A stretch of DNA of 12,583 nucleotides from Clostridia bacterium (GTDB lineage Bacteria; UBA6262; WVXT01; JAUXBS01). The translations under genes and the position numbers were made by a program. Under the pieces are notes generated by a model. It ran no database searches, had not been told where the DNA came from, and saw only the letters and a program-made list of their open reading frames with translations. Shown piece after piece: positions 6,919-9,454 of this stretch. Each line of letters starts with the position of its first letter. The stretch's first letter is position 1. The DNA is taken from assembly GCA_030618495.1 (NCBI GenBank), contig JAUXDE010000046.1:1-12583 (forward strand), read 5' to 3'.

Positions 6919-7663
6919 TGAAGGAGGATTGAAGCCGGTTTACCTGGAAGCCTTTGACCTTGACGATGCATGGTTTCAATGCCTGAATGCTATTCTGGAA
7001 AAAGGGCAGGTTTATAAAATAACAAGGGGAAGTTATGAAGGACAGAGGAGGCTTGAGTTTGACTTTATTACCGTCAGGGTTAAAAAACCGTCTAACCAGA
7101 TAATTCCTATAATACCCGAGGGTATGTCGATATCTCCTCCGACTAACATGGAGTACGTAAATAAGTATTTGAATTATCTATTAACAGGCAATAAAACCAA
7201 AACAGAGGAATATACTTACGGGGAAAGGCTGGTTGACGCTAAAGTCAGGATTAAGGAATATAAGGACGGGAAGGAAATGCTGAGTGAATTGCGTCTTAAC
7301 GTTAACCAGGTGCAGGAAGTGATAAACATATATAAAAAACAGGGATTCGGGACGAACCAGGCAATAATGGAAATAGGGATGCCTTCGGATATAAAACTGG
7401 ACGACCCGCCGTGCCTGCGGCTCATAGATACGAGGGTGAGGTACGGCAAGCTGCATTTCATTATTTACTTCAGGTCATGGGACCTTTGGGGAGGTTTTCC
7501 GTCCAATCTTGGCGGGATACAGCTGGTAAAACAGTACATGGCTGATGAGATAGGGATTGATGACGGGGAAATGATACTTGTGAGCAAGGGGCTGCATTTG
7601 TACGAATACACGTGGGAATGGGCAAAGCAGAGGACGGGGAAGTATGACCTGGAGGTAAAATGA
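6911..7663 (+). CDS. Thymidylate synthase-family protein (archaeal/methanogen-like type)
   Basis: 250 aa. Thymidylate synthase methylates dUMP to dTMP using a folate cofactor. Aligning by eye to E. coli ThyA, the core residues keep identical spacing: catalytic Cys168 in DPPCLR (E. coli Cys146), Arg188-Ser189-x-Asp191 (166-167-169), Asn199 (177, the residue favouring a uracil over a cytosine base), His229 and Tyr231 (207 and 209). YTYGERL near 103 matches the YGKQWR segment. The ThyA ELLWFLQG segment is replaced by YLNYLLTG, so I cannot assign the usual Glu58, and only about 19 residues follow Tyr231 instead of about 55, so the long C-terminal tail that closes the folate site is missing. This shape resembles short archaeal-type enzymes. 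ATG 6911, preceded by GGGAGGGAGAAGG, is preferred to an upstream in-frame TTG at 6884 that lies inside pgsA. A related nucleotide hydroxymethylase activity cannot be excluded. Confidence 0.85.
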   Translation: MSDEGGLKPVYLEAFDLDDAWFQCLNAILEKGQVYKITRGSYEGQRRLEFDFITVRVKKPSNQIIPIIPEGMSISPPTNMEYVNKYLNYLLTGNKTKTEEYTYGERLVDAKVRIKEYKDGKEMLSELRLNVNQVQEVINIYKKQGFGTNQAIMEIGMPSDIKLDDPPCLRLIDTRVRYGKLHFIIYFRSWDLWGGFPSNLGGIQLVKQYMADEIGIDDGEMILVSKGLHLYEYTWEWAKQRTGKYDLEVK

Positions 7664-8148
7664 AGGGGGAACGATTGAAAAACAAAAATAATGCCAATGA
7701 TGTGATAAAATTGCTTGCCACGGGATTCTATACGGGGTATTCCCCGTATGCCCCGGGAACGGCGGGGACGATTCTTGCCATGCTCCTTTACCTGATTCTC
7801 CCGTCAAGCCCTGCTTTTTACTGGTTGATTCTTATCGTATTGGTTGCGGGGGGGACGGTGGTTAGCGGTAAGGCCGAGAAAATGTACGGGAAGAAGGATT
7901 CTTCGTGTATTGTGATTGACGAGATATGCGGGTATTTCATTACAATGGCATTCCTGCCGAAGAGTCTGCCCCTCATGATTCTGGGTTTTGCGGTTTTCAG
8001 ATTTCTTGATATTTTTAAGCTGCCGTTTATAAGAAGGCTTGAAGATGTAAAAGGCGGTTTGGGGATAATGCTTGACGATATTGCCGCGGGAATGATAGGC
8101 AGCGTGATTCTTCATTTAATAAACCTATTTGATATTGTCGTACTCTAG
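7660..8148 (+). CDS. pgpA: Phosphatidylglycerophosphatase A
   Basis: 162-aa membrane phosphatase that removes the phosphate of phosphatidylglycerol phosphate, the step after PgsA. Family motifs are present in order: TGYSPYAPGTAGT (residues about 25-37), CIVIDEICGYF (about 83-93), and FRFLDIFKLPFIRR followed by GGLGIMLDDIAAG (about 108-143) with the conserved acidic residues retained. About four hydrophobic segments are visible, and length is normal. The ATG overlaps the TGA of the preceding gene (ATGA) and has GGAGG five bases upstream; a TTG at 7675 is a weaker alternative. The TAG stop is formed at the left boundary of the 267-bp repeat element: A8147 and G8148 belong to its terminal repeat. 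The catalytic Asp-rich motifs here are intact, in contrast to the PgsA-like protein two genes upstream. Confidence 0.95.
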   Translation: MKGERLKNKNNANDVIKLLATGFYTGYSPYAPGTAGTILAMLLYLILPSSPAFYWLILIVLVAGGTVVSGKAEKMYGKKDSSCIVIDEICGYFITMAFLPKSLPLMILGFAVFRFLDIFKLPFIRRLEDVKGGLGIMLDDIAAGMIGSVILHLINLFDIVVL

Positions 8149-8178
8149 TGTAGTGTTTCTAACATAGCTTTACATATG
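8147..8178 (+). repeat. Left terminal inverted repeat of the palindromic element
   Basis: 32 bases starting AGTGTAGTG and ending CATATG. It differs from the reverse complement of the right arm at two positions only (T8156 and G8168 in this copy). The T8156 difference would still allow a wobble pair in RNA. Confidence 0.88.
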
Positions 8179-8270
8179 AAGGGCAGGCTTTGAGACGGAT
8201 TCAAGGAAAGACGATGAAAGCATATCGAGAATATGGTGAAGAGGAAAGACGCAGAATACGTCCAAATGAT

Positions 8271-8286
8271 GCCCTTCCCGAAGGGC
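8271..8286. repeat. Central hairpin of the palindromic element
   Basis: GCCCTT-CCCG-AAGGGC, a perfect 6-bp stem with a 4-base loop, located at the midpoint of the 267-bp element. Downstream bases TGTCGTCTTTT contain a short T-run six bases after the stem, so it might weakly terminate the pgpA transcript, but the distance is too long for a typical intrinsic terminator. Confidence 0.6.
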
Positions 8287-8381
8287 TGTCGTCTTTTGTC
8301 CATCGTCGGCGTCACTCATCGTTCACATACGTACAGTATTCTCACTCTTCGTTCCTTGAAGATGAAGCAAAATACTTCCAG

Positions 8382-8413
8382 CATATGTAAAGATATGTTA
8401 GAAGCACTACACT
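8382..8413 (-). repeat. Right terminal inverted repeat of the palindromic element
   Basis: Reverse-complement partner of 8147-8178 with 30 of 32 bases matching. Its outer end ACTACACT stops directly before the GAAGGAGGAG ribosome binding site of recA. Confidence 0.88.
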
Positions 8414-8414
8414 G

Positions 8415-8423
8415 AAGGAGGAG
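8415..8423 (+). promoter_or_regulatory. recA ribosome binding site
   Basis: AAGGAGGAG ends two bases before the recA ATG (8426), with the GGAGG core six bases away. It begins just two bases after the right end of the palindromic element, so the recA leader must run through that element or start inside it. I find no convincing -35/-10 pair within the element. Confidence 0.8.
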
Positions 8424-8425
8424 AT

Positions 8426-9454
8426 ATGGCTAAGACAGAATCAAAGTCCGGGCAAAAGGAAGTAAAATTAGAGACTGAAAAAACAAAAGCTCTTGACCTG
8501 GCGCTTTCGCAGATTGAAAAGCAGTTCGGTAAAGGTTCAATAATGAGATTAGGCGATGACCATTACAAAGTAACAGTAGCGGCGATACCAACAGGGGCTT
8601 TGTCGCTTGACGTGGCCCTGGGTATAGGCGGACTGCCGAGGGGAAGGGTTGTTGAGATATTCGGGCCTGAAGGCGGAGGCAAAACCACACTGTCCCTGCA
8701 AATAATCGCCAATGCGCAGAAACAGGGGGGACGGGCGGCATTCATAGATGCGGAGCATGCTATGGACCCTATTTACGCGAAGAAACTCGGTGTTGACGTG
8801 GATAACCTGTATATTTCACAGCCTGACAGCGGTGAACAGGCGCTGGAAATAATGGAAACTCTTATCAGAAGCGGAGCGCTTGACGTAGTGGTGATTGACA
8901 GTGTCGCGGCGCTCGTGCCGCAGGCCGAGATAGAAGGCGAGATGGGTGATCAGCAGATGGGACTGCAGGCAAGGCTGATGTCCAAGGCGCTCAGAAAGAT
9001 CACCGGCGCTGTTTCAAAGTCAAAGACATGTACTATTTTTATAAACCAGATCAGGGTAAAGATAGGCATGATGTTCGGCAATCCCGAAACAACGACAGGC
9101 GGCCGCGCGTTGAAGTTCTATTCATCCGTCAGGATGGACATTCGCAGGATAGGATCAATAAAATCAGGCAATGAAATTATAGGTAACCGTGTGCGTGTGA
9201 AAGTGGTTAAGAACAAGGTGGCGCCGCCATTCCGGCAGACTGAATTTGACATGATATTTAATGTCGGAATCAGCAAGGAGGGCAGTATATTTGATATGGC
9301 TGTTACCAGTGAGTTAATCGAAAAGAGCGGCACGTGGTTTTCATATAAGAGTGAAAGAATCGGCCAGGGAAGGGAAAACTCCATGAGATATTTGAAGGAG
9401 AACCCGAAGATATTAAATGAACTGGAAAAGATTATACGCGAGAAGTTGAAATGA
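8426..9454 (+). CDS. recA: Recombinase RecA
   Basis: ATP-dependent strand-exchange protein of homologous recombination and co-protease for LexA-type repressors. 342 aa, slightly short because the C-terminus ends REKLK without the long acidic tail of E. coli RecA. The conserved core is complete: [41 protein letters not shown], Walker [10 protein letters not shown] at residues 80-88, Walker [11 protein letters not shown], the L1 and L2 loop regions ([38 protein letters not shown]), and the polymer-interface region. The P-loop reads GPEGGGKTT rather than the usual GPESSGKTT; this still satisfies the Walker consensus. ATG 8426 follows an excellent Shine-Dalgarno. No LexA-type operator was recognised in the short upstream space. 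Confidence 0.98.

Follow-up and report, generated by a model that had tools for sequence, protein, structure and literature searches.

A 265-bp palindrome between pgpA and recA in a Clostridia bacterium, most probably one copy of an IS630-type MITE family

The spacer between pgpA and recA in the analysed window, a stretch of 12,583 nucleotides from a Clostridia bacterium, is filled by a nearly complete palindrome. With a probability of about 0.93, this palindrome is one copy of a family of non-autonomous DNA transposons (MITEs) whose ends fit a transposase of the IS630/Tc1-mariner type. The best reading is of a new IS630-type MITE family, of a kind already known from the RUP and Correia elements. 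The element is short, non-coding and bordered by terminal inverted repeats (TIRs), its copies are dispersed, the family duplicates a TA dinucleotide, and both filled and empty sites are seen, with a remnant possible at the recA site. Derivation from IS630 is indicated by TIRs matching one end of an IS630 element from a different bacterium and by a TA target, preferably within CTAG; an autonomous partner was found neither in the host genome (G000) nor in the same-genus genome G001.

The first-pass annotation had described a 267-bp near-palindrome at window positions 8147-8413, with 32-bp TIRs identical at 30 of 32 positions, additional internal pairing, a perfect central hairpin and no coding capacity, and each of these observations was borne out. 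The outer 32 bases match the opposite arm at 30/32 positions, where the best of 2000 shuffles reached 18; a repeat search recovered paired arms at 8138-8178/8382-8422 and 8200-8214/8346-8360; the hairpin lies at the centre, and zero ORFs of at least 80 amino acids occur inside the element. Folded as plus-strand RNA, the recA-site element reaches -96.5 kcal/mol compared with -61.3 kcal/mol for shuffles (z -7.08). The limits of the element are corrected here to those of Table 1, between GTGTAG and CTACAC, with the two 31-bp ends of this copy agreeing at 29/31 positions. The earlier remark that no target duplication is visible was misleading, as the family duplicates TA and the right-hand TA of the recA copy is degenerate, reading TG.

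Table 1. Features of the element and its neighbours, in window coordinates.
Feature	Position	Strand	Basis
pgpA (phosphatidylglycerophosphatase A)	7660..8148	+	ORF; Pfam PgpA 2.8e-40
Left TA target duplication, within pgpA stop codon	8146..8147	.	TA adjoins 34/55 family ends
MITE copy, 265 bp, non-coding	8148..8412	orientation arbitrary	Genome copies, end alignment
Left terminal inverted repeat GTGTAGTGTTTCTAACATAGCTTTACATATG	8148..8178	+	End comparison
Central perfect hairpin GCCCTTCCCGAAGGGC, tail weakly terminator-like	8271..8286	+	Hairpin search, fold
Right terminal inverted repeat GTGTAGTGCTTCTAACATATCTTTACATATG, minus-strand reading	8382..8412	-	End comparison
Right target duplication, TG in place of TA	8413..8414	.	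End comparison
recA ribosome binding site AAGGAGG, directly 3' of element	8415..8421	+	Sequence
recA	8426..9454	+	ORF; Pfam RecA 1.5e-138

A search of the whole host genome, read locus by locus, located element sequence at about 38 places, with up to 95% identity to the recA copy. Some of these places may be halves of one copy, because many lie at contig ends. Full-length copies are also found inside contigs, each with different flanks, and in five of the copies fetched (L001, L002, L003, L005 and L006) the GTGT-type ends enclose exactly 265 bp. The same-genus genome G001 has several copies of its own, one of them on a contig (C280) whose flanks are merely 73% identical to the host genome, so the family is truly present in that species. 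The proposal of an undescribed repeat family is thus supported by the host places and the further copies in G001. Among the remaining relatives searched the family was not found, save for end-only matches in the genome G043, and a search of viral contigs, plasmids and phages gave zero matches to the element.

Two further copy-bearing contigs of the G001 assembly (C208 and C47, with loci L038 and L039) are 99.8-99.9% identical to G000 over the entire fetched length, whereas true orthologues of the two genomes are 73-78% identical. Judged by this identity, both contigs are probably mis-binned, and for the same reason their copies are left out as proof of old shared insertions.

That the palindrome arose by chance, or as an artefact of assembly through inverted duplication, is scarcely credible. 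Strong self-complementarity can come from such an artefact, and many copies do lie at the contig ends of a fragmented assembly, but the shuffled sequences fall far short of the observed match between arms, full copies sit inside contigs with different flanks, and the diverged contig C280 also carries the element.

The target of the family was read from 55 ends, defined as GTGTAG...CTACAC and including three from G043. TA lies directly outside 34 of these 55 ends, the two ends of one copy not being independent, against a background of 6.8% (p about 5e-26), and a C precedes the flanking TA in 22 of the 34 cases (background 8.3%). Several copies, among them L003, L006 and L007, have TA on both sides. 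Tenzen and Ohtsubo 1991, as cited in PMC2170065, name a CTAG preference of IS630 in their title, and the present family has this preference as well as the TA target of IS630.

Nearly the same terminal repeat was found in G043, a bacterium of another family, in an autonomous element that spans about 1.13 kb and has one IS630 transposase gene, TA on both sides and the ends GTGTGATGTTTCATAAATAACTTGACATTTG and GTGTGGTGTTTCTAACAGATCTTTACATTTG. Its transposase (about 351-366 amino acids) matches NF033545 IS630 with 263 bits and contains a DDE_3 domain. The right end, GTGTGGTGTTTCTAACAGATCTTTACATTTG, shares 27-29 of its 31 bases with the window family, compared with a maximum of 21 in 200,000 shuffles, while the other end, GTGTGATGTTTCATAAATAACTTGACATTTG, agrees at 22-25/31. 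In the window family both ends are of the GTGTGGTGTTTCTAACAGATCTTTACATTTG type, whereas the small elements of the genome G060 have one end of each type. The latter (L072 and L074), from an unrelated bacterium, are about 170 bp long and represent another MITE that shares these IS630 end types. The G043 element and ISBmu8-type IS630 elements encode a transposase of about 350 amino acids, whereas the window element encodes nothing; the transposase of the ISBmu8 type shares 52% identity with that of G043, and the ends of its element look just loosely alike.

A resident autonomous partner is usual for an IS630-derived MITE but does not define one, membership being a matter of origin even where no partner is present. 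With the G043 transposase as query, zero matches were obtained in the host and related genomes, and an IS630 transposase was found neither in the host genome (98% complete) nor in G001, G043 serving as positive control. The missing host partner may reflect loss or assembly gaps. The sole transposase-family match in the host, a weak one on contig C116, was considered as the mover and rejected, as it is IS3/IS481-like with different target rules; it corresponds to a transposase ORF of 328 amino acids at L047:880-1866, close to the contig end.

A second family of palindromic repeats, about 268 bp long, is also present, at L017:1593-1870 (contig C92 of the host genome) and at L077, L078, L079 and L085, with roughly 15-20 places in all. 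It has the TIR GTGCTCTGTAACATAAATTCCCGTTATTTTTG and a similar centre, CCCGAAGGGC, and its TIR bears a weak likeness (17-19/31) to the left-end type of the IS630 group in G043 and G060. Chimeric elements, one half from the recA-type family and the other from the second family, occur in L017, L018, L023, L025, L009 and L077, with TA still outside several of their ends.

Comparison of sister genomes for an empty pgpA-recA site showed the element to be absent from G001, where the spacer is about 30 bp, and from the same-order genomes G002 and G003 (about 20 bp each) and G004 (about 60 bp). At a second site, L005, the flanks lie about 100 bp apart in G001 compared with about 370 bp in the host. Together with the 38 or so copies and the TA targets, these two sites empty in G001 support the MITE architecture first suggested from the single copy. 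The G001 recA spacer contains TTAGTGTTATATTTC, which weakly resembles the element end (11/14 bases, counted by eye), so a decayed old remnant is possible there instead of a never-filled site. Even so, the same-order genomes place the gain of the recA-site element within the genus. The flanks of L007 match different G001 contigs, and a clean empty-site alignment was not obtained for the C280 site.

The two arms of individual copies are matched to a degree beyond that of the family at large. Ends of one copy are more alike than ends of different copies (27.7 vs 25.9 of 31), a likeness reached in 2 of 10,000 shuffles, and among copies the paired columns covary, with 94.8% paired and a covariation score of 0.132 vs 0.087 in shuffles. 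Such matching would result if one arm converted the other, or if selection kept the two transposase sites equal. Covariation of this kind might also be expected of a conserved RNA that regulates recA in cis or forms its leader, a highly improbable reading here. As the loci of the compared copies are unrelated, the covariation is a property of the repeat family and no evidence for a recA function; the spacers of about 20-60 bp in G001 to G004 show no conservation at recA, and an Rfam search of the element returned nothing up to E 1.

The suggestion that the palindrome acts as a regulatory or RNA-structure element for recA is likewise unsupported. Family copies adjoin many unrelated genes, the element is absent at recA in relatives, a sigma-70-like promoter was not found in 7900-8500, and a search of the element for a Gram-positive-type LexA box gave zero matches. 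A co-opted MITE is nevertheless conceivable, in which a 265-nt hairpin in the pgpA-recA mRNA would attenuate transcription or be cut by RNase III, tuning recA apart from pgpA. Its transcript is predicted to fold strongly, the hairpin at the centre weakly resembles a terminator, and operon-borne Correia and ERIC elements affect mRNA (PMC2229807; PMC3049150). Against this, the recA spacer of same-genus and same-order genomes is free of the element, similar copies stand beside many unrelated genes, and neither a promoter-like site nor a Gram-positive-type LexA-box match was found, making co-option unlikely. On sequence grounds the palindrome is taken to be a MITE copy and not a dedicated recA control element, with an incidental effect on the pgpA-recA mRNA possible.

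Insertion of such a MITE would proceed with a transposase, supplied in trans and presumably of the IS630 type, which would bind the 31-bp terminal repeats, excise the element and join it to a TA, preferably within CTAG, the TA thereby being duplicated. At the present site the element would have inserted at the TA within the stop codon of pgpA, its far end coming to lie 2 bp upstream of the recA ribosome binding site. The pgpA stop TAG (8146-8148) consists of the target TA and the first base (G) of the element, and the PgpA protein is unchanged because this G restores TAG; its end position is identical in G001. The insertion may thus have been neutral. Among 33 copies examined, with genes called as simple ORFs, the TAG stop of a neighbour is likewise composed of target TA and element G in 7, and the stop of a neighbouring gene falls within the element end in 13. 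Of the non-coding TA sites, 3.8% fall within stop codons, and against this background the 6 of 28 host copies located at them represent an excess (p about 5e-4), landing in stop codons being about five times over expectation. Either the preference for CTAG or the selective loss of damaging insertions could explain this, special targeting being unnecessary. A more elaborate scheme, in which the ends serve as stop-codon cassettes, the arms are kept matched in each copy by repair or hairpin selection, and copies settle at gene 3' ends, leaving the protein unchanged while operons acquire a long hairpin that is processed, recA being thereby uncoupled from pgpA at this site, is doubtful.

Among known systems, RUP of Streptococcus pneumoniae is a small non-coding repeat with IS630-like terminal repeats, a TA target, many intergenic copies and a strong hairpin (PMC2229807), and the window element shares these properties with RUP and its partner IS630-Spn1, down to the small size, TA target, many copies and strong hairpin. 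RUP differs in having 107 bp and a 9-bp TIR, compared with 265 bp, a TIR of about 31 bp and a near-complete palindrome here, and its IS630 partner resides in the same species, whereas that of the window family has been seen only in another bacterium. The Correia or NEMIS elements of Neisseria have 24-bp TIRs, TA at their termini, hairpin RNA and insertions beside genes (PMC2229807). Compared by description and not by sequence, the window element is similar in TIR length, TA termini, hairpin RNA and position adjacent to genes, but Correia elements are about 107 or 155 bp long; RNase III processing has been studied for them.

A candidate regulatory element for recA is hereby removed from consideration. 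A TA insertion in a stop codon can be protein-neutral, as the first base of the element restores the stop. A little-studied lineage appears to have its own IS630-type MITE family, which may be or have been active in this host and whose ends are related to those of mobile elements in unrelated bacteria.
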